A stretch of DNA of 64,000 bases from assembly GCA_030692765.1 (NCBI GenBank), contig JAUYUB010000006.1, positions 1 to 64,000 of the forward strand, written 5' to 3'. Within the stretch, counting starts at the first letter, position 1. Each line of letters opens with the position of its first letter. Position numbers and translations under genes: made by a program. The stretch comes from Sulfuricurvum sp. (lineage in GTDB: Bacteria; Campylobacterota; Campylobacteria; Campylobacterales; Sulfurimonadaceae). Below are positions 33,328 through 45,858 of the stretch, piece by piece. The notes beneath the pieces were generated by a model, which saw nothing but the letters and a program-made list of their open reading frames with translations, did no database searches and was not told where the DNA came from.

Positions 33328-33414
<87 letters not shown>

Positions 33415-33455
33415 TCTAGACTTACAACTTCTACCCTATAAACATAAAACTTAAC

Positions 33456-33542
<87 letters not shown>

Positions 33543-33797: not shown

Positions 33798-33842
33798 TTG
33801 TAGTCAAACTGTAATATACATGTAATATTCATTAACTATGAT
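33798..33842 (+). promoter_or_regulatory. Putative Pho box array and promoter for the first TonB-dependent receptor
   Basis: Heptamers TTGTAGT (33798), CTGTAAT (33809), ATGTAAT (33820) and a weak ATTAACT (33831) recur every 11 bp with 4-bp AT-rich spacers. The 18-bp CTGTAAT-N4-ATGTAAT unit ends exactly 10 bp before TATGAT (33837-33842), a good -10. This is the PhoB-activated promoter layout, where the Pho box replaces the -35 element. The binding protein itself is inferred. Confidence 0.7.
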
Positions 33843-33892
33843 TCACCAGCAAAGTGCCTGAAGCATTAGCGAAATATAATCAAGGGTTAAAA

Positions 33893-36070
33893 ATGAAAAC
33901 GATAAGTGTAATCGCTGCTTCTGTAATTATTACAGCACAGCTAGTGGCCGCAGATACTACATCTGAATCAACAGAACTTGGTTCTATGTCTATTATCAGT
34001 CATGATGACTCATTAGCAAACAGTATAATCACTGCAAAATCTCTTCAGCAAATATCACCGATGACGGATGTTTTGAATACAATTAACCACCTCCCTGGTG
34101 TTAACGTTCAACAAGCTGATGCATTTGGTATGGATGACTGGCAGACTCAAGTCACAATGCGTGGTTTTGCTACTGACCAAATTGGATTTACAATCGATGG
34201 TGTTCCAAATGGTCAAACAAATTACGGCGGCGGCGCAAAACCAGACCGTTTTACAGAGATTGAAAATCTTGAGTCTGTAAGTGTTTCTCAAGGTTCAGCG
34301 GATATCTCTTCAACTTCCAACCAGTCTCTTGGCGGAACAATTATGTATAGCTCTGGTATGCCGGCTGACGAAGAGGGAATGAAGTTTGCACGTACTCAGG
34401 GTAGTAACAATATGGAACGTACTTTTGTAAGATACGATACAGGTAAATTCAACGAGGGACATACTTCTGCTTATGCAAGTTATTCTGACACTTTCTCGAA
34501 CCGATGGATTGGCACAGGTTCAAACGGTAAGTTCGAAAGAACACACGTTGAGGGTAAAATCAAACATGTATGGGATGAAAATATAATTTCTTTCAGTGCA
34601 TCATACAATGATCGTTACGAAAACGATTATGATACTGTTACACTAGAACGCTTCCATACCAATCCAACAACAGATGGATTAACATGGTTCTGGACAGGTG
34701 ATCCAGCGAAAGATACAAATTTTGCTGAAACATGGGCTGGACTTCGTCAAGATACTATGCTTCACACAAATCTTGATCTTACGCTTCCTGCAGATGTTCG
34801 TTTAATCGCTGTTCCATATTATCATCACCAAACGGGTGAGGGTCACTGGATGCCACCATATATTGTTTTGAAAAAAGATGACTCTTTGACAGGTGCATTT
34901 GATTCAAAACAATATGTAGATCCAGCAACAGGTGAGTATACCGCTTCACACAGATCAAGTATCTATAATAATGATCGTTTTGGTACTACATTACGTCTAG
35001 AAAAAGAGATTGAAAACCATTCTCTTGCAGTTGGTATGTGGCATGAGTTTCAAGATCGTGACAACTCTCGTGAATGGTATGAGATACTTAATGAAGCAAC
35101 AAGTTGGGATTGGAACACTAAACCATACTGGCTACAATTTGACAATACATATAAAACTACAACGAATATGGGTTACATAGAAGATAAAATGAGTTTTCTC
35201 GGAGATTCATTGAGTGTAAATGTTGGTCTTAAAATGCATCTTGTCGATACAACATTAATAAATAACTTTGACAACTCTCAATTTTCACAAACGAGTAAGT
35301 CTGGGCTATTACCTCAAATTGGTGCTGTGTACAAAATCAACAATGCTAACCAAGTTTTTGCAAGTTTTTCACAAAACTTTAGTGCAAAACCTGACTATCT
35401 TCTTGGTGAATCTGTAAAAGACCCTAGTTTAAAAGCTGAAACAGCAGATAACTTCGATATTGGATACCGTTTCAATGGAAATAAACTAGCTGCAACTGCA
35501 ACAGTTTATATGAATAAATTTAAGGACCGTATCGGTTCAAGAGAACTTTCTGCAGATGAAGCAGCAGATATCTATTTCACAGAAGCTACTTCGGCTTATT
35601 TCAATATCGGCGGTATTAACTCTTATGGTCTAGAGCTTGGAGCAACATACCAGTTAACTGATAGAATTAGCGTATACGGTTCATATACTTACAATCAATC
35701 TGAGTATTCTGAAAGTAATCCTACTGAGGGAATCGTCGATGGTAACAAAGTTATTGCACAACCTGAAAATATGGGCGCAATTGATATTACCTACAAACAT
35801 AATGGTTATTTACTTGGTCTAAACGGTAAATATACTGGTCAGCGTTACAGTAAACTTGACAATAGTGAGCAAGCACCTGACTATACACTATGGAATCTTG
35901 TTGCAGGTTATAGTAAAGGCGTAAAAAGCGACTTCATTAAATCTGTAAATGCACAAGTTAACGTATTCAATCTGTTTGATGAAAGATTCCTTGCGGGTGT
36001 TTTCAATCCAGGTCTTTACTCCCTTGGCGCATCACGTAATGTAACATTCACATTTGGTGCTAGTTTTTAA
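33893..36070 (+). CDS. TonB-dependent outer-membrane receptor
   Basis: A 725-residue receptor: signal peptide at 1-20, a plug domain (about 35-160) with the sequence LNTINHLPGVNVQQADAFG, a VTMRGF motif and an IDGVPNG motif, then a 22-strand-type barrel ending in Phe (FTFGASF). It imports a substrate through the outer membrane using TonB energy. The ATG at 33893 has AAGGG 7 nt upstream and yields a clean signal peptide; the in-frame start at 33854 does not. A Pho-box-like promoter precedes it and phosphatase genes follow, so a phosphorylated or phosphate-related ligand is the best guess. A hairpin follows the stop. Confidence 0.85.
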   Translation: MKTISVIAASVIITAQLVAADTTSESTELGSMSIISHDDSLANSIITAKSLQQISPMTDVLNTINHLPGVNVQQADAFGMDDWQTQVTMRGFATDQIGFTIDGVPNGQTNYGGGAKPDRFTEIENLESVSVSQGSADISSTSNQSLGGTIMYSSGMPADEEGMKFARTQGSNNMERTFVRYDTGKFNEGHTSAYASYSDTFSNRWIGTGSNGKFERTHVEGKIKHVWDENIISFSASYNDRYENDYDTVTLERFHTNPTTDGLTWFWTGDPAKDTNFAETWAGLRQDTMLHTNLDLTLPADVRLIAVPYYHHQTGEGHWMPPYIVLKKDDSLTGAFDSKQYVDPATGEYTASHRSSIYNNDRFGTTLRLEKEIENHSLAVGMWHEFQDRDNSREWYEILNEATSWDWNTKPYWLQFDNTYKTTTNMGYIEDKMSFLGDSLSVNVGLKMHLVDTTLINNFDNSQFSQTSKSGLLPQIGAVYKINNANQVFASFSQNFSAKPDYLLGESVKDPSLKAETADNFDIGYRFNGNKLAATATVYMNKFKDRIGSRELSADEAADIYFTEATSAYFNIGGINSYGLELGATYQLTDRISVYGSYTYNQSEYSESNPTEGIVDGNKVIAQPENMGAIDITYKHNGYLLGLNGKYTGQRYSKLDNSEQAPDYTLWNLVAGYSKGVKSDFIKSVNAQVNVFNLFDERFLAGVFNPGLYSLGASRNVTFTFGASF

Positions 36071-36086
36071 GTAAATGCTATTTATA

Positions 36087-36101
36087 GAGGGCTCTGCCCT
36101 C
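36087..36101 (+). terminator. Stable hairpin after the receptor gene
   Basis: GAGGGC-TCT-GCCCTC is a perfect 6-bp GC-rich stem with a 3-nt loop, 16 nt after the stop codon. No T-run follows, so it may stabilise or attenuate the mRNA rather than terminate it. Confidence 0.4.
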
Positions 36102-36215
36102 GCATATCATAAAGTTGAGAGATATTTTGACTTTACTAGTATAGATTTCATTTTATCAATATTAGTAAATTCATGAAAATTATTTACATGAGTTTTAGCA
36201 AAAAAAGGAGAACTA

Positions 36216-37313
36216 ATGGTTCGATCTATCTTCATTGTTTCTATTCTATATACAGCGATTTTTGCAAGTGACAAACCGCTTCAAGTGATTGCTTTTGGTT
36301 CGTGCGCAAATCAGAATGAAGCACAACCAGCTTGGAAGGCGATTTCAAAACATAAGCCTGATTTAGTGATAATGCTTGGAGACAACGTTTACGCAGACTC
36401 TGATACTGAATGGATAGAACAAGCAAATGCAGGTAAACATACCCCAGCTTTGGAAGCAAAGGTCAAAAAACATATACAAGCACAGTATGACAAACTTGCT
36501 GCAAAAGAAGAATTTGCAAAACTTCGTCTATCAACTCCATTTGTCGCAACATGGGATGACCATGATTTTGGGAAAGATGACATAGGAAAAACATTTCCGT
36601 TCAAGGACATCTCCAAGGATATTTTTCTTGATTTTTGGAACGAGCCAAAGAATTCATTAAGACGAAACCAAGAAGATGGCATATACGCAAGTTACTACTA
36701 TGGTGAAGAAGGAAAGCGAGTACAGGTTATCATGTTAGACTCACGTTATATGAGAGATTCTCAATATAAAGTAAATGCTGAAGATCAAAAATTGAGAGAT
36801 AAATCTAATACTGGACCGTATCTTGCAGATGCTAATCTCAATGCGCGTATGCTTGGTGATACACAATGGAAGTGGCTAGAAGAAGAACTTTCAAAACCTG
36901 CAGATCTTCGTATTATAGGCTGTTCAATACAATTCCTCTCTGATTTTACAGGTTGGGAGAGTTGGTCGAATTTTCCAAAAGAGAGAGAACGTCTTATTAA
37001 ACTTATCGGACAAAAAAAAGCTGAGCATGTAATTTTTATAAGTGGGGATACACATTGGTCTGAATTTAGCAAGGTTGATGAAAATTTACCATATCCTTTA
37101 TGGGACTTGACATCAAGCGGAATTAATATGGAGTGGCGCGAGATTTCACCTAATCGTTATCGTGTCAAAAAGCCGTATTATGGTTCTAATTTTGGACTTA
37201 TACTTATAGATTGGGAGAATGAGCCGGCTGTTAAGCTGCAAATTAGGGATGATAAAAACAATCTGGTTATGGAGGAAAAAATTAAGCTGAATAGTTTAAG
37301 CTTTCAGCACTAA
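36216..37313 (+). CDS. PhoD-like alkaline phosphatase/phosphodiesterase
   Basis: A 365-residue exported metallophosphatase of the PhoD superfamily. Signal peptide at 1-17. Metal-site motifs: FGSCANQ, LGDNVYAD, WDDHDFGKDD and the later ISGDTHWSE, which together give the binuclear metal centre. PhoD enzymes cut phosphate monoesters and diesters outside the cytoplasm. This version is shorter than Bacillus PhoD and has no long N domain. It lies between two TonB-dependent receptors in the same direction. AAAGGAG precedes the ATG; no Pho-box array was found directly upstream. Confidence 0.85.
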   Translation: MVRSIFIVSILYTAIFASDKPLQVIAFGSCANQNEAQPAWKAISKHKPDLVIMLGDNVYADSDTEWIEQANAGKHTPALEAKVKKHIQAQYDKLAAKEEFAKLRLSTPFVATWDDHDFGKDDIGKTFPFKDISKDIFLDFWNEPKNSLRRNQEDGIYASYYYGEEGKRVQVIMLDSRYMRDSQYKVNAEDQKLRDKSNTGPYLADANLNARMLGDTQWKWLEEELSKPADLRIIGCSIQFLSDFTGWESWSNFPKERERLIKLIGQKKAEHVIFISGDTHWSEFSKVDENLPYPLWDLTSSGINMEWREISPNRYRVKKPYYGSNFGLILIDWENEPAVKLQIRDDKNNLVMEEKIKLNSLSFQH

Positions 37314-37333
37314 TTCTTTAATTGGATAACTAA

Positions 37334-39031
37334 ATGGAAAAAATTCTTTTGTTGGCTGCTGCAGCTATTTTATCTGCACAAACATATACTCTTAAACCAA
37401 TCAATATCACGGATAATCAAAATACTATTTTGTCAGATACTCACGAGGTACTTAAGGCTAAAGTTCAACTGCAAGAAAGTGCCCCAGGTCTTTATAATCC
37501 AATCATAAATGGTCTTCAGGGGGATAAAGTCAGTATAACGATTGATGGCTTGCGTTTTAGTAATGCTATTTGGCGTTCGGGTCCCAATCAGTACTTTTCA
37601 TGGATTCCCCAAGAATTTGTTTTAAATAACGAAATACTGCCAACTTCCGATGCCATAGGATCAACCATTAACGCCCAATTGGGGATTTCTGAGAATAGTG
37701 TCTCATATAACTTTGATCAATATAATACGGGCAATACAGCTCTTGTAAAAATGGATTACGGTGAAGTAAAAGCGGGCCTAAAATATCAGAACACTGGGAA
37801 TTACAATGCCATAGAGCAAAGTGATTATAATCAGAATGCGATCTATCTTGAACACTCAGCTAAAAATCACTCTTCAAAACTGCTTTACAGTGTAAGTAAA
37901 GATATTGACAGACCTGATAAGCTCATTAAAAAGGTACCTTACACCTGGGATATTCAAGAGTACTTTTTACTCAAGCACAACTACTCTGTTAGCGATTCGG
38001 ACTCTCTTGAGATGAGTTTTCAAAGATTTAATGAAAAAATTGACGATAATGGTGAAAAATATAACTCCAATAACAATATGTACGGTCTTAAATATAACCA
38101 TATTTTCACAGATGAGCTGAATTTAATTTTTTCTAATTATTACGAAGATATGTCCCATAAAGAAAGCGATTATAGTTATAACACATTAAGTACGGGTTTT
38201 GAATACCGGCATGGCTTTGAGGATTTCTCGGTATATTCCCGCTATATATTAGCCAATGCCAATGCCCACTGGGATAATAATAAACGTGATTTTTTAAGTA
38301 ATGCACTCAGTCTTGAACTCTATGAGGACATTTGGTACACACGTTATGATTATGGGTATAAATTTCCTTCAATTCAAACTATAGCATATCCAGAAACAAC
38401 CGGAAAAGGGTATGACCTTCCAAACACTCATCTTGAACAAGAAATAAGCCATACCTTCACACTCGGTACTAGAGATTACTACTCTACAAATGTCTCTTAT
38501 GACCTTTCGATTTACTATCTTTATATGGAAAACCTCATCGATAGAATACGCCTAGATTATCAGATTGCCGGGGAAGATGTTTATCAAATAAAAAATGTTG
38601 ACAATGGATTTACATACGGTGCTAATATCGAAACAAATTTTCAGTTTTTTGATGTAAAAAATTATTTTTCATTGCAGTATGCTAACGGAAAGACAAGTAA
38701 AGACTACATTTCAAAACTAACCCCCTTAAAGCTTTTTTATAAAACAGAATATAAAGATTTATATCTCAAATGGGAGTATGCGCCAAAAAGCTATCAACTT
38801 GCAAAAAGTGATCTGGCGGATGTTCGTATTGAAGATCCTCGATACAATCAGTATCATAACGTCGGCTACAATCTTTTTAGTCTTGGCATGAAGCACACTA
38901 TTAATCGCTCTAATAGCATTACGGTTAATTTTAACAATATCTTTAACAATAATGGAAGAGTATTGGGATCCTCAATTGATGTACCAGAGCAAAGTTTTAG
39001 TGTAAAATATAAATACTCACTGGCAATTTAA
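37334..39031 (+). CDS. Second, smaller TonB-dependent receptor-like outer-membrane protein
   Basis: A 565-residue protein: short signal peptide (MEKILLLAAAAILSAQ), a reduced plug (LYNPIINGLQGDKVSITIDGLRF, then an IGSTINAQLG-like loop), and a barrel rich in YxxF/YxY strands ending VKYKYSLAI. Clearly smaller than the usual 650-800 residues, with fewer extracellular loop insertions. It starts 20 nt after the phoD-like stop, so the two are probably co-expressed. It may be specialised for the product of the neighbouring phosphatase. Confidence 0.75.
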   Translation: MEKILLLAAAAILSAQTYTLKPINITDNQNTILSDTHEVLKAKVQLQESAPGLYNPIINGLQGDKVSITIDGLRFSNAIWRSGPNQYFSWIPQEFVLNNEILPTSDAIGSTINAQLGISENSVSYNFDQYNTGNTALVKMDYGEVKAGLKYQNTGNYNAIEQSDYNQNAIYLEHSAKNHSSKLLYSVSKDIDRPDKLIKKVPYTWDIQEYFLLKHNYSVSDSDSLEMSFQRFNEKIDDNGEKYNSNNNMYGLKYNHIFTDELNLIFSNYYEDMSHKESDYSYNTLSTGFEYRHGFEDFSVYSRYILANANAHWDNNKRDFLSNALSLELYEDIWYTRYDYGYKFPSIQTIAYPETTGKGYDLPNTHLEQEISHTFTLGTRDYYSTNVSYDLSIYYLYMENLIDRIRLDYQIAGEDVYQIKNVDNGFTYGANIETNFQFFDVKNYFSLQYANGKTSKDYISKLTPLKLFYKTEYKDLYLKWEYAPKSYQLAKSDLADVRIEDPRYNQYHNVGYNLFSLGMKHTINRSNSITVNFNNIFNNNGRVLGSSIDVPEQSFSVKYKYSLAI

Positions 39032-39051
39032 TCGACTTGATTTGGTACATA

Positions 39052-39085
39052 CTGTAATGGTTAGGTAATTTCAAATCGTTACTAT
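39052..39085 (+). promoter_or_regulatory. Putative Pho box and promoter for the phoX-like gene
   Basis: CTGTAAT (39052-39058) and AGGTAAT (39063-39069) lie 11 bp apart. The 18-bp unit ends 10 bp before TACTAT (39080-39085), a -10-like hexamer. It is the same layout as upstream of the first receptor and of the propeller-phosphoesterase gene. Confidence 0.65.
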
Positions 39086-39118
39086 TTCCCATGATAAAGC
39101 AATCAAAGGAAAACCAAA

Positions 39119-41257
39119 ATGCTTAAAAAAGAGCTTGATCTCGGATACGATGAGTGCAACACCTCAAGCAACGAAAGTTTTGAAAACGTATTGGCTGATC
39201 GTCTCAGCCGGCGAGATGTAATGAAAATTGGAGCCTGTTTCATTGGGGCTTCACTTTTCGGTTCCTTTGGGGCGCAACTCAATGCCGATGATTCATCTAC
39301 CTCCACTTCAGTTCCTGCTGCAGCGGTATTACTAGGTTTTAATGCCGTACCAAAAAGTCTTGCGGATACGGTAAGTGTTCCAGCAGGATATACTTCTAAA
39401 GTGATTTTTGCTACCGGTGATCCAATCAAGATGGGAGTAAGTACCTATAAAAATAATGGTACTGATAGTCGAGATTTTGAGAATCGTAGTGGTGATTATC
39501 ATGACGGTATGATCTATTTTGGTCTCAAAAATGATAACAGCGGATACGATGCGACCAACTCAAAAAATGGCCTTTTATGTATGAATCATGAATACATCAA
39601 CCAAAATTATATCCACACCACAGCAGAAGTTGCAGCTATCGATAAGACAGCACGTGTTACAGCGCAAGTTGACAAAGAGATCGCATTGCATGGTGTTACA
39701 ATCGTTAAGGTAACGGATAGCGGCTCAGGATTTGGTATTGACAAATCATCAAGCTACAATCGACGTATTACTGGTGATACCCCAATAGCTCTCAATGGCC
39801 CTGCACGTGGAAACGTGCTACTACAAACATCCTATTCAACCAACGGGACCATGACACGCGGTACACTTAACAACTGTGCCGTGGGTTCAACACCATGGGG
39901 AACGTTCCTTACATGTGAAGAGAACTGGTCGGGCTATTTTAAAGGTGATACTCGAACCGGAAAAGAAGCAATTGCGATGAGCCGCTACGGTATCAAAAGC
40001 ACCAGCCACTTTGGATGGGAAAGTGTATATCCACAATTTAGCGCAAGTATTACCGGTGCTGATGCAACCGCTGATTACCGTAATGTTGCTAATACACAAG
40101 GATATGTCGTTGAAATCGATCCATTCAGTCCAACATCTACTTCGATTAAACGCACTGCAATGGGACGTTTTGCGCACGAAACAGCCTCTTTGGGTAAATT
40201 AACGGTTGGGAAACCAGTGGTATTTTATATGGGCGATGATGCTAAAGGTGAATACATCTATAAATTTGTATCGAATCAGAACTGGGATGCAGCAGATGCA
40301 AACGGTGGGTTGAGCGCAGGGAATAAATATCTCGATGCAGGGACACTATACGCCGCAAAATTTAATGCTGATGGTACAGGGCAATGGCTAAAACTTGCTA
40401 TTACTGAACCCGCAATCTCAACATATACTACTTATCCATTTGTTGATGCGGCTGATGTAGCGGTTCATACTCGTATTGCTGCCGATGTAGTCGGTGCGAC
40501 TAAAATGGACCGTCCAGAATGGTGTGACGTTCACCCAACAACCGGTGAAGTATACATGACGCTTACTAATAACTCTGACCGTGGCAAAAGTGGTAAATAT
40601 GGACCTGACGCAGCTAATCCACGTTATTATACAGATACCTGCGAAACAACGGCAACAAACAAAGGAAATGTCAACGGACACATCATCCGCTGGAAAGAGA
40701 CAGGGGAGGAAGGAACGGCTACAACCTTTATGTGGGATATCTATCTCTTCGGTGCACAATCAGATGCCAATGGTACCAATATTAATATCTCAGGTCTAAC
40801 CGATGATAATGATTTCTCTTGTCCTGATGGATTATGCTTTAGCGAAGTGACCAAAGGGTTGATGTGGATTCAAACGGATGATGGAGCCTATACTGATGTA
40901 ACGAACTGTATGATGCTCGCAGCTGTTCCTGGAAATGTTGGAGATGGAGCTGGCTATAGTGTAGCCAATACGGCAGTTCCGACTAATGGAAATGCGGATC
41001 AGACCATTGCAACTTTTGTCGGTAAAGATGCTACGGCTTCAACGCTTAAACGCTTCCTTGTTGGACCAAAAAATTGTGAGCTTACTGGAATAGCAGAAAC
41101 ACCGGATGGTAAAACTATCTTCGTAAATATTCAACATCCAGGAGAAGAGGGGACTGCTTCAACTTTAACCAGTAACTGGCCTGATGGTGGAACATCACGT
41201 CCACGTTCTGCTACTGTGGTTATCACTAAAAATGACGGCGGGATCGTAGGCTATTAA
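39119..41257 (+). CDS. phoX: PhoX-family phosphatase (DUF839), Tat-exported
   Basis: A 712-residue PhoX-type alkaline phosphatase. The N terminus carries a long n-region and a Tat motif (LSRRDVMKIGACFIGASLFGSFG, about residues 35-55 as a region). The PhoX pattern of NHEYIN-like CMNHEYIN, GRFAHETA, TCEENWSGYF and the ending FVNIQHPGEEG is present. PhoX needs calcium and iron and hydrolyses phosphomonoesters; Tat export fits a pre-loaded metal cofactor. A Pho-box-like promoter lies directly upstream. Confidence 0.88.
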   Translation: MLKKELDLGYDECNTSSNESFENVLADRLSRRDVMKIGACFIGASLFGSFGAQLNADDSSTSTSVPAAAVLLGFNAVPKSLADTVSVPAGYTSKVIFATGDPIKMGVSTYKNNGTDSRDFENRSGDYHDGMIYFGLKNDNSGYDATNSKNGLLCMNHEYINQNYIHTTAEVAAIDKTARVTAQVDKEIALHGVTIVKVTDSGSGFGIDKSSSYNRRITGDTPIALNGPARGNVLLQTSYSTNGTMTRGTLNNCAVGSTPWGTFLTCEENWSGYFKGDTRTGKEAIAMSRYGIKSTSHFGWESVYPQFSASITGADATADYRNVANTQGYVVEIDPFSPTSTSIKRTAMGRFAHETASLGKLTVGKPVVFYMGDDAKGEYIYKFVSNQNWDAADANGGLSAGNKYLDAGTLYAAKFNADGTGQWLKLAITEPAISTYTTYPFVDAADVAVHTRIAADVVGATKMDRPEWCDVHPTTGEVYMTLTNNSDRGKSGKYGPDAANPRYYTDTCETTATNKGNVNGHIIRWKETGEEGTATTFMWDIYLFGAQSDANGTNINISGLTDDNDFSCPDGLCFSEVTKGLMWIQTDDGAYTDVTNCMMLAAVPGNVGDGAGYSVANTAVPTNGNADQTIATFVGKDATASTLKRFLVGPKNCELTGIAETPDGKTIFVNIQHPGEEGTASTLTSNWPDGGTSRPRSATVVITKNDGGIVGY

Positions 41258-41344
41258 TAAGCAGCAGACAAAAAGTTAGAGCTTAGTCACTCTTACTTAC
41301 ATTCCTGCTTCCAAATTCAAATCTTCTTTACCGCCTGCCCTAGT

Positions 41345-41400
41345 TTGTAACTGTTTTGTAATATTATCGTATCACTTTGGTAATTATAGTAAGGGATAAT
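41345..41400 (+). promoter_or_regulatory. Putative Pho box array and promoter for the propeller-phosphoesterase gene
   Basis: Four units with the conserved G at 41347, 41358, 41369 and 41380 (TTGTAAC, TTGTAAT, TCGTATC, TGGTAAT) recur every 11 bp. The last ends at 41384, exactly 10 bp before GATAAT (41395-41400), a strong -10. This is the clearest of the three arrays in the island. Confidence 0.75.
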
Positions 41401-41419
41401 ACTGTACAAGGGGTCAATT

Positions 41420-44119
41420 ATGAAAATCTTTTTACTATTATTTATCACTTTTCGTTTATTTGCTTTAGAGTCTTTACCAACAGGTTTCAATATCACGCCC
41501 AAAGCTTCTCAAAGCGCAGATTTTAGAGTTTTTAATCCAGATTTAATACACAGACCAAATTATTTGGCAGGTCAAGCAGTTAGTATTAAACTTTCTCCTG
41601 ATAAAAAAACCTTACTAATCTTAACAAGCGGATTCAACAGAACACATAACAGTGATGGTACTTTAGATATAAATGCATCCAATGAGTATGTATTTATATA
41701 TGATGTATCCAAACAAGTGCCTATAAAAAAACAAGTTATTCAGTTGGCAAATACTTTTTATGGAATTGCATGGGCACCAAAACAAGATGCTTTTTATGTC
41801 TCCGGTGGAGTTGACGATAAGATTTACCATTTTAGCATGCATGGTGGTCAATATCAAAAAACCGCTGAGATAGCTTTGCAACACAAAGTAGGACTAGGTA
41901 TAGATGTAAAACCTATGGCGAGTGAAATTGCGATTAGCTCTGATGGCTCTTTATTGGCAGTATCAAATATGGAAAATGATTCCATTACTTTAATAGATAA
42001 AAGTAAATTTAAAATACTTGACGAAATTGATTTAAGACCCGGTAAAAATAACTCTAGATTGCATGGTGTAGCTGGCGGAGAATTTCCATTTGGAGTTGTA
42101 TTTGCAGATAAAAAAATATATGTAGCAAGCATGCGAGATTATGAGTTAATAGTATTAACCTATAAAGACAATAAATTAAAAATAAATAAACGTATTAAAG
42201 TTGGAAGTCAGCCTACGCGAATTTTATTTGATAAAAAGCATCATGAACTTTATGTTGCAAATAGCAGAAGTGACAGTATCAGTATTATAGATACTAAAAA
42301 CGACACTGTAAAAGGAAGTTTTTTCACAACTGCTCCTACAAATATCTTTAATAAATACCACTTAAAAGGTGGCAATCCAAATGCTATGAGATTAAAAGAT
42401 GATGTATTGTATGTGAGCAACGGAGGTCTAAATGCTATCTCCCTCGTTAATATAATACATCAAAAAGATACGACTACTGGAGAAGTTATTGGGCTTTTGC
42501 CAACTGGATGGTATCCAAATGATTTAGAAATAAAAGATAATTATCTCTATATAGTAAATGGAAAAGGTTTATCAGGCAGTAATATTGGAAATTGCAGAAA
42601 TAATGTATCAACAGATGCTAACGCATCCTTCGAGTGTGCTAGCCATAATCTTCATACTTTAAAGACTAAAAAAGCAGGATTTTTGACTATGAAAATTCCA
42701 GATCGAGAGGAATTAAAAAAGTTAACATTCCAAGTTGCTAAAAACAACAATTTTTTTCAGCAAAATGAAAAAGATGAGATGATGAAATTTTTGCAAAATA
42801 AGATTAAACATGTTGTATATGTTGTAAAAGAAAACAGAACATATGATCAAATTTTAGGTGATTTAGAACATGGAAACGGAGATGCTAATTTAACGCTTTT
42901 TCCTAAAACAATAACACCTAATCATCATAAACTCGCAAAAGAGTTTGTTACTTTAGATAATTTTTTAGACAGCGGGACTGCAAGTAATGATGGCTGGGTT
43001 TGGAGTACATCAGGGCATACAACAGAGTATACTGAAAAAAATATTGCAATTAACTACGCACATCGTGGTCTGAGTTATGATAACGAGGGACAAAACAGAA
43101 ATATTCCTTTAGCTCATGCTGATATTAAAGAGCGACAAACATTTGATTCTAGAGTACCTGATGATGATGATCTTTTACCAGGTACCAGAGATGTGGCATC
43201 TGTAGACGGTGATGATGATGCACCGGCTGAGGGTTATTTGTGGGATAAAGCTTTGAAAGCTGGTCTTGAAGTCAGAAATTATGGGTTCTATTGTGATGAA
43301 GAACGTTATTTTTTAGATAAAAATGACTCCGCATATGTAGTGCCTTCCGAATATCCGTTTGAAAATAAATTAGTGCAATCGTATCCTAATAAAAAAGCTT
43401 TGCTAGGTATTACTGATCCCTATTTTCATGCCTATGATCCTGGATATCCTGATTTTTGGAGATATAAAGAGTTTAAAAGAGAATTTAATGAGTATGTAAA
43501 GAATCAACGTCTTCCAAATTTACTTTTGGTCCGATTACCAAATGATCATTTTGGTTTATTCAAAACAGCTTTAGCAGAGGTAAATACTCCTTTAAAGCAG
43601 ATGGCGGACAATGATTATGCTTTAGGTCTATTAGTTCAGGATATCGCGAACAGCCCTTTTAAAGATTCAACACTTATTTTTGTAATAGAAGATGATGCTC
43701 AAGATGGTGCTGACCATGTAAATTCACATAGAAGTATTTGTTTGGTCGCTGGTCCTTATGTGAAAAAAAATGTTGTTATTTCTAAGCGTTACACTACGGT
43801 AAATGTTTTAAAAACAATAGAAGATATTTTAAATATTGAACCCATGGGACTTAATGATGCGTTGAGTGAAAGTATGAGTGACCTTTTTGATCAAAATGCA
43901 ACAGAATTTGTCTATAAGGCTGTCGTTCCAAATATTCTATACAAAACAGAATTGAAATTGCCAAAAGTTTCAATACCACATAATCTTGATGAAATAAAAG
44001 TTGATCACGATAGTGCGTATTGGGATAGAGCTATGGATGGTCAAAACTTTGAAAGTGAAGATAACCTTGATAGCGTAAAGTTTAACAAAGCTCTTTGGAA
44101 AGGACTAAAGAATGAATAG
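41420..44119 (+). CDS. Beta-propeller/phosphoesterase fusion protein
   Basis: An 899-residue secreted protein. Signal peptide at 1-15. Residues ~50-420 are a YVTN/YncE-like beta-propeller (repeated IDTKNDTVKG and LYVANSRSDSISI-type blades). Residues ~460-800 are a phosphoesterase of the AcpA/PLC family (ENRTYDQILGDL, the DSGTASNDGW region, and DDAQDGADHVNSHRS with metal-ligand Asp and His). It probably hydrolyses phosphoesters in the periplasm or at the outer membrane. Codon wobble is visibly AT-richer than in the neighbouring housekeeping genes. Pho-box promoter upstream. Confidence 0.8.
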   Translation: MKIFLLLFITFRLFALESLPTGFNITPKASQSADFRVFNPDLIHRPNYLAGQAVSIKLSPDKKTLLILTSGFNRTHNSDGTLDINASNEYVFIYDVSKQVPIKKQVIQLANTFYGIAWAPKQDAFYVSGGVDDKIYHFSMHGGQYQKTAEIALQHKVGLGIDVKPMASEIAISSDGSLLAVSNMENDSITLIDKSKFKILDEIDLRPGKNNSRLHGVAGGEFPFGVVFADKKIYVASMRDYELIVLTYKDNKLKINKRIKVGSQPTRILFDKKHHELYVANSRSDSISIIDTKNDTVKGSFFTTAPTNIFNKYHLKGGNPNAMRLKDDVLYVSNGGLNAISLVNIIHQKDTTTGEVIGLLPTGWYPNDLEIKDNYLYIVNGKGLSGSNIGNCRNNVSTDANASFECASHNLHTLKTKKAGFLTMKIPDREELKKLTFQVAKNNNFFQQNEKDEMMKFLQNKIKHVVYVVKENRTYDQILGDLEHGNGDANLTLFPKTITPNHHKLAKEFVTLDNFLDSGTASNDGWVWSTSGHTTEYTEKNIAINYAHRGLSYDNEGQNRNIPLAHADIKERQTFDSRVPDDDDLLPGTRDVASVDGDDDAPAEGYLWDKALKAGLEVRNYGFYCDEERYFLDKNDSAYVVPSEYPFENKLVQSYPNKKALLGITDPYFHAYDPGYPDFWRYKEFKREFNEYVKNQRLPNLLLVRLPNDHFGLFKTALAEVNTPLKQMADNDYALGLLVQDIANSPFKDSTLIFVIEDDAQDGADHVNSHRSICLVAGPYVKKNVVISKRYTTVNVLKTIEDILNIEPMGLNDALSESMSDLFDQNATEFVYKAVVPNILYKTELKLPKVSIPHNLDEIKVDHDSAYWDRAMDGQNFESEDNLDSVKFNKALWKGLKNE

Positions 44120-44181
44120 TTTTTAAAAGTTAATTCGGATGAGTTACGTCGGTATCAAAACAACATTTAAAAGGAAACATC

Positions 44182-44607
44182 ATGGAACAGTATAAAGATT
44201 TTTTGGACATAGCCATCTTCGCAATTTTGGGGATGATGAGCATTATCACCATTGGGGTTGGGATCGAGAGAACCCTATTTTATAAGAGCGTAGCAGTGGA
44301 AGAGTATACCCACCAAAAAGAGTTGGAATTAGCGTTAGGAAATAACCTTACCATTATCTCTACCATTGCCTCTAATGCACCCTATATTGGATTATTAGGG
44401 ACGGTTTTTGGGATTATTCTCACCTTTTACACCATTGGAAGCAATGGGATGGCAGACAGTAATGCCATTATGATGGGATTAGCCTTGGCGCTTAAAGCGA
44501 CTGCATTTGGATTGGTCGTCGCTATCCCTGCTATTGTCTTTCATAACTATTTGGTGCGTAAAATGGAGGTGTTGATGATGCAGTTGGAGATACATCATGG
44601 CAATTAA
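44182..44607 (+). CDS. exbB: ExbB-family TonB-system proton channel protein
   Basis: A 141-residue three-membrane-segment protein (about 12-32, 62-82 and 103-125). The family motif APYIGLLGTVFGIILTFYTIG and the later LALALKATAFGLVVAIPA are present. With ExbD it uses the proton gradient to energise TonB. It has AAAAGGA before the ATG and overlaps exbD by 11 bp. The position right after the receptor/phosphatase genes suggests a private set for this island. Confidence 0.9.
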   Translation: MEQYKDFLDIAIFAILGMMSIITIGVGIERTLFYKSVAVEEYTHQKELELALGNNLTIISTIASNAPYIGLLGTVFGIILTFYTIGSNGMADSNAIMMGLALALKATAFGLVVAIPAIVFHNYLVRKMEVLMMQLEIHHGN

Positions 44608-44974
44608 AAAAATCGAAGCGATCAATGTTATCCCCTTTATCGACATCATGTTGGTGTTGTTGGCGATTGTGTTGACCACGGCGACGTTTATTGCCAAAGG
44701 GTCGATCAAAGTCGATTTGCCCAATGCCTCAGCTCTCGCCGCAAAAGTAGACAAACCGCGTGAGATCACCATCACAGCGGATAAAAAGCTCTATCTTGAT
44801 GGGAAAATGACTGATACGAGCTCTCTCGTGGCACAGTTGGGGAAAACGCCCAAAGAGACGACCATTATTATCAATGGCGATGCTAAAGTTGAGTATAACT
44901 ATTTTGTTACGACCATCGATACTCTCACACAAGCGGGGTATGTCCACCTCTCTCTTACCACGAAGCGAAACTAA
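44597..44974 (+). CDS. exbD: ExbD-family TonB-system protein
   Basis: A 125-residue protein with one N-terminal membrane helix (about 11-30) carrying the essential Asp (VIPFIDIMLVLLAIVL) and a periplasmic domain. It forms the stator with ExbB. It overlaps exbB and is followed 3 nt later by tonB. Confidence 0.92.
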   Translation: MAIKKIEAINVIPFIDIMLVLLAIVLTTATFIAKGSIKVDLPNASALAAKVDKPREITITADKKLYLDGKMTDTSSLVAQLGKTPKETTIIINGDAKVEYNYFVTTIDTLTQAGYVHLSLTTKRN

Positions 44975-44977
44975 ACG

Positions 44978-45649
44978 ATGCTTAAAAAAAGTCTTGCCCT
45001 CTCTGCAGTGTTGCATCTCATGGTAGTAATAGCAGTTGTTTTTAGGATGGATTCCACTCCACCTCTCCTAAAATCTAAACCCGTTGTGGTGACGATGGCG
45101 GCATTACCTCAACCACCTCAACCACCTCAACTTCCTCAAAAAGTGACACCCTCTAAACCACCCCCTCCACAAGCGGTGATGCCCCAAAAAGTTTCCACAC
45201 CAACACCGATGGTAGCACCGGTTGCGACCAAGCCAGCTTTGGTTAAAGAAGAAACTCGCTCTCCCATCACCCCCACGCCTGTGGAAACACCTGTTGCTAA
45301 ACCCATCGAGACAATTTCTCCTCCAGCCCCAAAAAAACAGGCTCAAGCGGATACGTCGTCAATCAAAAACCAGTATTTAGGGTATCTGGTTCAAACCATT
45401 CAAGCACATAAAGCTTATCCGAATAAAGCAAAACGCTTGGGGCAGACGGGAACTGTTGAAGTAACTTTTACAGTTATGGCAGATGGAACAATTGCTAATA
45501 TAAGAGTCAAACAGACCTCTAGTTTTGGACTGTTGGATAAAGCGGCAGCAGATATTTTTACTTTGCTTGCAAAAGTACGCCCGATTCCAAAAGAACTAGG
45601 AAAAGAGAGTTGGGAGTTTACATTACCGATCAATTATCAGCTAACTTAA
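44978..45649 (+). CDS. tonB: TonB energy transducer
   Basis: A 223-residue protein: N-terminal membrane anchor (about 8-25), a Pro-rich spacer (about 38-125, dominated by PPQ, PPP and KP pairs) that spans the periplasm, and a C-terminal TonB domain (about 135-223: AHKAYPNKAKRLGQTGTVEVTFTVMADG, with the late strand WEFTLPINYQLT). It contacts the TonB boxes of receptors and completes the exbB-exbD-tonB set of this island. Confidence 0.9.
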   Translation: MLKKSLALSAVLHLMVVIAVVFRMDSTPPLLKSKPVVVTMAALPQPPQPPQLPQKVTPSKPPPPQAVMPQKVSTPTPMVAPVATKPALVKEETRSPITPTPVETPVAKPIETISPPAPKKQAQADTSSIKNQYLGYLVQTIQAHKAYPNKAKRLGQTGTVEVTFTVMADGTIANIRVKQTSSFGLLDKAAADIFTLLAKVRPIPKELGKESWEFTLPINYQLT

Positions 45650-45853: not shown

Positions 45854-45858
45854 CATTA

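Follow-up and report, generated by a model that had tools for sequence, protein, structure and literature searches.

A candidate PhoB-controlled organophosphate acquisition module with its own TonB-ExbB-ExbD set in Sulfuricurvum

Introduction

Active import of organic phosphorus across the outer membrane has been documented mainly in Bacteroidota. In Flavobacterium johnsoniae, the loci PUSI to PUSIV contain genes for TonB-dependent transporters clustered with phosphatases and are induced by phosphate depletion (PMC8115612). PUSIII uses a TonB-dependent, SusC-like porin, PUSI and PUSII carry SusC-SusD pairs, and the proposed route is import followed by cleavage in the periplasm; in the available part of that account, no exbBD-tonB genes are described within the loci (PMC8115612). 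Here we describe an island of eight genes in a 64,000-nt stretch of DNA (the window; contig JAUYUB010000006.1) from Sulfuricurvum sp. GCA_030692765.1, whose genome comprises 2.15 Mb in 28 contigs. The island encodes a TonB-dependent receptor (TBDR1), a smaller receptor (sTBDR), the phosphatases PhoD and PhoX, a propeller-phosphoesterase fusion (PropPE) and an ExbB-ExbD-TonB set. We consider it likely, with a probability of about 0.7, that the island forms a PhoB-controlled module for acquiring organophosphates, a counterpart of the Bacteroidota PUS loci without SusD.

The island resembles the Flavobacterium loci in that TonB-dependent transporters are co-located with phosphomonoesterases and diesterases. 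It is distinguished by a Ton set within its own operon, by a PhoB box built from 11-bp repeats and by PropPE, the most frequent partner, and neither the open reading frames nor Pfam searches revealed a gene for a SusD-type surface lipoprotein in the island. PUMA3 of Pseudomonas aeruginosa is also a PhoB-controlled locus with its own exbB2D2 and tonB4 genes, but it is centred on cell-surface signalling through an extracytoplasmic function (ECF) sigma factor and anti-sigma factor, and its receptor-like protein is thought to signal rather than import (PMC4971064). Within the same phylum, the PhosS/PhosR system of Campylobacter jejuni places a Tat-exported PhoX and PstSCAB under one two-component system, but the study describing it links neither receptor nor Ton genes to the regulon (PMC3197622). 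Finally, the Vibrio TtpB-TtpC-ExbB-ExbD-TonB-TtpD system (TonB2) has the same make-up as the six-gene Ton sets in relatives of the island, but it serves siderophores (PMC6957404), and the window's own Ton set is of the three-gene exbB2 type.

Results

Gene content of the island

The eight genes lie on one strand (+) at 33893-45649 in the order TBDR1, PhoD, sTBDR, PhoX, PropPE, ExbB, ExbD and TonB, and were identified from the list of open reading frames and by Pfam and NCBIfam profile searches of the window's proteins. A sequence-only reading of this DNA had named the same genes in the same order and direction, and all were confirmed, the small receptor by BLASTP and profile-profile comparison. 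That reading had also held that the layout could not be placed. This proved wrong, since the island belongs, as one variable version, to a module that recurs elsewhere (see below) and parallels the Flavobacterium PUS loci.

TBDR1 (33893-36070; 725 aa) was assigned by Pfam (barrel PF00593, E 1.7e-40; Plug PF07715, E 2.5e-12), BLASTP and a phylogenetic tree. A GTG at 33854 opens the reading frame as called, but the true start is most likely the ATG at 33893. The PhoD-type phosphatase (36216-37313) contains the PF09423 catalytic domain (E 2.6e-27), matches alkaline phosphatase D (PDB 2yeq, 2e-14) and retains the metal-ligand and catalytic motifs GSCAN, GDNVYAD, WDDHDF and GDTHW; no PhoD_N domain was found in it by Pfam. 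PhoX (39119-41257) matches PF05787 over its full length (E 8.9e-134) and Pseudomonas PhoX (PDB 4amf, 3e-112), and its catalytic motif NNCAxGxTPWGTxLTCEEN is intact. A second PhoX, 68% identical to that of the island, is encoded elsewhere in the genome (L075:10963-13113, G000:C23) with a weaker box at -67.

The Ton set consists of an exbB2-type ExbB (44182-44607; TIGR02805, E 4.6e-49), ExbD (44597-44974; PF02472, E 2.5e-27) and TonB (44978-45649; TonB_C, E 5e-18). The island ExbD is closest to the ExbD_2 type at 112 bits, slightly below the model cut-off of 123. The earlier proposal that the island has its own energy supply holds as gene content; use of this set alone is only a possibility, and three further ExbD-type sets are present elsewhere in the genome.

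Export signals read from the proteins are a Tat signal on PhoX (SRRDVMKIG) and Sec-type signals on PhoD and PropPE, and no type-II secretion gene lies beside the island phosphatases. Because of these signals and the lack of an adjoining type-II secretion gene, the periplasm is the simpler predicted place of action for all three enzymes, and the suggestion that phosphoesters are cleaved at the cell surface is left without support.

Pho boxes and the Pho regulon

Pho boxes are defined as direct repeats with an 11-bp period (PMC4415409), and a pattern scan found two or more such repeats at three promoters of the island, all on the + strand. Box 1 (33799-33826, about -94 to -67 relative to the TBDR1 start codon) has three TGTAAT-like units, with pattern matches at -94 and -83; box 2 (39053-39069) lies at -66 before phoX; and box 3 (41346-41384) lies at -74 before PropPE and has up to four units, the first two of which alone reach 11/12. 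With at most one mismatch, TGTAAT-N5-TGTAAT occurs four times in the 64 kb compared with 0.88 times expected from dinucleotide shuffling, a count reached by 1 of 100 shuffles. All four matches fall in the island's three promoters, which bears out the Pho-box-like promoters previously noted before three of the genes.

The same box is present in the genome's pst locus (PstS, PhoU, PhoB, PhoR, PstC, PstA, PstB) at -66 of pstS and -62 of pstC. Sampling the genome's Pho regulon by pattern only, we found 19 sites for the three-unit pattern with at most three mismatches compared with 4 for a reversed control. The top three-unit box outside the island, which is near-perfect, lies directly upstream of olsF, encoding a bifunctional ornithine-lipid synthase (L076:13492-15213, G000:C11; 746 bits, cut-off 620). 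In Vibrio cholerae, low phosphate induces ornithine lipids (PMC12186959). Based on the near-perfect box upstream of olsF, phospholipids are probably replaced in Sulfuricurvum sp. under phosphate limitation. The boxes shared with pstS, pstC and olsF at similar distances from the start codons support the placement of the island under predicted PhoB control.

A good Pho-like box also precedes the gene for a 240-aa exported protein without a Pfam family (L004, G000:C1:59161), a candidate member of the Pho regulon.

Recurrence within Campylobacterota

The sequence-only reading had proposed a comparison of the locus across Campylobacterota, which was carried out here on 228 Sulfurimonadaceae genomes (the family sample, with TBDR1 counted at E <= 1e-40) and 298 genomes of the phylum. 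Members of the TBDR1 clade were found in 9/228 family genomes from four genera; five of the nine belong to one genus, and they represent about four independent lineages. A phosphoesterase gene (PropPE, PhoD, PhoX-like, PhoA, phospholipase C or GDPD) neighbours TBDR1 in 9/9 loci. A Ton set is adjacent in 7/9, with the contig ending near TBDR1 in G345 and G355, and these sets are of two non-homologous types. Because non-homologous Ton sets adjoin one receptor clade, we infer that a dedicated motor may have been selected for. In the tree, eight full-length TBDR1 proteins form one group with support of 92/99.

The loci differ in composition. Relatives of PropPE or sTBDR were found in G345, G354, G355, G394 and G395. 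G354 and G355 encode TBDR1 (66% in G354), sTBDR (32-34%), PropPE (56-57%) and PhoD (53-54%), and in G354 a TtpB/C-type Ton set and a receptor-phytase pair lie upstream. The G394 locus comprises a Ton set, TBDR1, PropPE (69%) and PhoA, while G345 has TBDR1 and PropPE (70%) followed by a more distant receptor and PropPE. In G395 the order is Pho box, phospholipase C, TBDR1, PropPE fragment, Ton set and PhoX-like gene. The remaining loci are those of G429 (TBDR1 with its own Pho box, Ton set, PhoX-like gene with its own Pho box, and phospholipase C at the contig edge), G486 (Ton set, phospholipase C, Pho box, TBDR1) and G431 (Ton set, GDPD, Pho box, TBDR1, alkaline phosphatase-superfamily phosphodiesterase, PhoA). 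Six-gene Ton sets (DUF3450, ExbB, ExbB, ExbD, TonB, TPR) adjoin TBDR1 in G354, G394, G395, G429, G431 and G486. Strong boxes were found in 6/227 upstream regions of open reading frames in the family loci, which equals the number of module sites in the set, and a strong box belonging to TBDR1 itself is present in G429, G486 and G431.

Two side observations concern these loci. In the pair upstream in G354 (L260:818-4192), the gene for a beta-propeller phytase (PF02333, 1.2e-88) comes directly after the receptor gene, which makes the two a candidate system for phytate uptake adjoining the module. The G395 module is found on two contigs, C1 and C17 (L266, L267), as near-identical copies, which reflects either duplication or an assembly artefact.

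From the phylum sample it seemed that the relatives of TBDR1 were all distant and set in metal or molybdate contexts; the close clade emerged only with the denser family sample. In the phylum sample, the only substantial PropPE relative outside the island's own genome is that of G224, with 29% identity over 728 aa. Furthermore, BLASTP against the island found another island gene at 0/11 other Campylobacterota PhoX loci, so PhoX by itself is of little use for locating the island. In certain Campylobacterota genomes (G025, G066) the PhoX gene appears to be interrupted by frameshifts or stop codons; these are likely pseudogenes.

A separate clade of Campylobacterota receptors (L214, L215, L217-L221, L223) is encoded beside FmdE-like proteins, Ton sets, ModE-like regulators and B12/iron- or molybdate-type ABC genes, all named from their sequences. 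A possible function for this clade is TonB-dependent uptake of molybdate or tungstate chelates.

The PropPE fusion and its partners in other phyla

PropPE (41420-44119) was characterized by Pfam, an alignment of 33 sequences and a predicted structure. Pfam identified a Lactonase/YncE propeller and a Phosphoesterase domain (PF04185, E 3.3e-8), and the structure predicted from the alignment reached a pLDDT of 88 and a pTM of 0.91. Residues about 29-428 form a 7-bladed YncE-type propeller (VIA-align Z 33 to E. coli YncE). The C-terminal half matches the AcpA acid phosphatase (PDB 2d1g, E 4.5e-10) and a phospholipase C; the AcpA/phospholipase C superfamily corresponds to PF04185 and has PDB 2d1g and 8k3g as reference structures. 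Foldseek and VIA matches to PropPE were all propellers and uninformative on the phosphoesterase half, which was placed by sequence only. E471, N472, S522, D758, D759 and H766 are invariant across the 33 homologues and are also kept in the Sulfurimonadaceae orthologues. The C-terminal half is an AcpA/phospholipase C-type phosphoesterase of predicted activity, with the metal and nucleophile residues retained. Thus PropPE is like members of this superfamily in its C-terminal domain and in these residues, but unlike them in the fusion of this domain to a 7-bladed YncE propeller.

Similar pairs of PropPE and receptor genes were found in other phyla. On the Emticicia plasmid pEMTOL04, PropPE directly follows an sTBDR-related receptor; Thiobacillus has TonB, PropPE, an sTBDR-related receptor and PropPE; and a Pyrinomonadaceae genome has PropPE followed by a receptor. 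The Acidithiobacillus locus (L175:2068-9007) comprises ExbB, ExbD, PropPE, TonB and a receptor, with a PhoB-like regulator adjoining. The position of PropPE between exbD and tonB in this locus suggests that the enzyme is tightly coupled to the Ton motor.

The small receptor sTBDR

The sTBDR protein (37334-39031; 565 aa) carries the motif IDGLRFSNAIWRSGPNQYF and was matched by no Pfam or NCBIfam model, including the full-length plug PF07715. BLASTP matched it to the Emticicia receptor at 1e-11, and hhalign profile-profile comparison with TonB-dependent receptors gave 99.5% probability across 507 columns. As judged from this homology of barrel and plug and from the plug motif, sTBDR belongs to the TonB-dependent receptors. 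Its plug appears shortened: the initial part and the GPSSVLYG-type segment are absent or degenerate, and the G354 and G355 homologues show the same gaps; this reduction is read from the alignment alone. For the 22-strand barrel structure, an AlphaFold model built from an alignment of just four sequences reached a pLDDT of 33. Among the 298 phylum genomes the only occurrence of sTBDR is the protein itself, and a search of the genome collection for relatives with back-translated peptides found nothing.

Insertion beside tRNA-Met

Tandem tRNA-Met genes (33337-33413 and 33465-33541, + strand; ARAGORN and repeat search) mark the left edge of the insert. They sit in an 87-bp identical tandem repeat at 33328-33542, and compared with the two copies in the window, tRNA-Met is present as a single copy in G328, which is the closest genome of the same genus and lacks the island, and in three further sister genomes. 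The flanking genes of G328 are separated by 1.2 kb of unrelated DNA, and its alignment with the window stops at 33432 and restarts at 45856. Insertion of the island as one block is demonstrated at the level of this sequence comparison. Third-position GC content (GC3) is 0.21-0.33 in TBDR1, PhoD, sTBDR, PhoX and PropPE, 0.49-0.56 in ExbB and ExbD, and 0.39 +/- 0.05 in the other genes of the window. We considered the tRNA-Met duplication as an integrase att scar, but no matching copy was found at the right edge of the island.

No RNA families other than tRNAs were found in the window, and generic promoter and terminator scans of the window performed no better than chance.

Discussion

The functional tie between TBDR1-type receptors and phosphoesterases is supported by their adjacency in every family locus and by the independent pairs in other phyla. 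With the boxes shared with the pst locus and olsF, this indicates that the earlier expectation of phosphate-starvation regulation and scavenging was largely right. We propose that in low phosphate PhoB would bind the three boxes and turn on three units, TBDR1(-PhoD-sTBDR), PhoX and PropPE-ExbB-ExbD-TonB. The ExbB-ExbD-TonB set, perhaps used in preference to the other Ton sets of the cell, would energize both receptors, and phosphoesters poorly admitted by porins (too large or too scarce) would cross the outer membrane. Periplasmic PropPE, PhoX and PhoD, with differing ester preferences, would then free phosphate, which the Pho-controlled PstSCAB would import. Because related blocks with swapped parts recur in other genera, the island appears to represent a modular system for phosphate scavenging that had gone unrecognised in these bacteria.

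Several observations weigh against this interpretation. The best matches of TBDR1 among solved structures are siderophore and metallophore receptors of the CntO, FoxA and FecA type (1e-15 to 2e-11), and its sister clade in the phylum consists of receptors from metal-chelate or molybdate-like ABC loci. No Pho box was found upstream of PhoD or ExbB, so transcription of these two genes would rest on read-through. The partner phosphatases vary strongly between TBDR1 loci, and a single common phosphoester ligand is not obvious. Additionally, most of the 80 PropPE loci fetched from outside the family have no receptor nearby; pairing of PropPE with a receptor is therefore recurrent but not universal.

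The receptor matches and the sister-clade contexts give the main rival explanation its strength, namely that the receptors import metal chelates, with iron (and calcium) supplied to PhoX and PhoD, so that metal uptake and metallo-phosphatases are joined under phosphate control. PhoX and PhoD do use Fe3+ and Ca2+, and the siderophore-like ancestry of TBDR1 keeps this explanation alive. However, a siderophore locus would be expected to encode an inner-membrane ABC importer or binding protein for the chelate, and none was found in the 33-46 kb region, unlike in several loci of the sister clade. Furthermore, the partner of TBDR1 is PhoA in G394 and G431 and phospholipase C in G486, and PhoA is a Zn/Mg enzyme that does not need iron. 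No iron-type regulation was seen, without a systematic Fur-box scan. Weakened by the PhoA partners and the lack of a chelate importer, the metal-import explanation seems to us unlikely, with perhaps one chance in six or so left to it in our judgement.

Alternatively, the receptors could be surface sensors of phosphate stress or take up some other starvation-related compound, as suggested by the PhoB control and the exbB2D2 and tonB4 genes of PUMA3 (PMC4971064). This is improbable, as the open reading frames of the island and its flanks include no apparent gene for an ECF sigma or anti-sigma factor, and TBDR1 and sTBDR have short N-termini with no apparent signalling extension. That unrelated phosphate genes and receptors came together by chance at a tRNA hot spot, as the mixed base composition and the insertion beside the duplicated tRNA-Met might suggest, is very improbable given the same core in four genera, the receptor-PropPE pairs in other phyla and the one regulatory element common to three promoters.

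Beyond the organophosphate acquisition module favoured here, a bolder and distinctly tentative proposal, which we regard as more doubtful than not, is that TBDR1 and PropPE represent a new class of outer-membrane importers dedicated to intact phosphoesters outside Bacteroidota. Such a class would combine a phosphate-responsive receptor clade lacking SusD with its own interchangeable Ton motor, and the PropPE propeller would serve to dock the enzyme onto the receptor or TonB, allowing cargo to be cleaved on entry into the periplasm.

The family loci offer a simple test set in which one receptor clade is combined with varied enzymes and swapped Ton motors. A candidate role is also gained for two poorly described families, the TBDR1 clade and the widespread YncE/alkaline-phosphatase fusion proteins. 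If our interpretation is correct, TonB-driven import of phosphoesters would be a general strategy, with the same logic built from other parts in Campylobacterota and with hints of it in Acidithiobacillus, Thiobacillus and Acidobacteriota.

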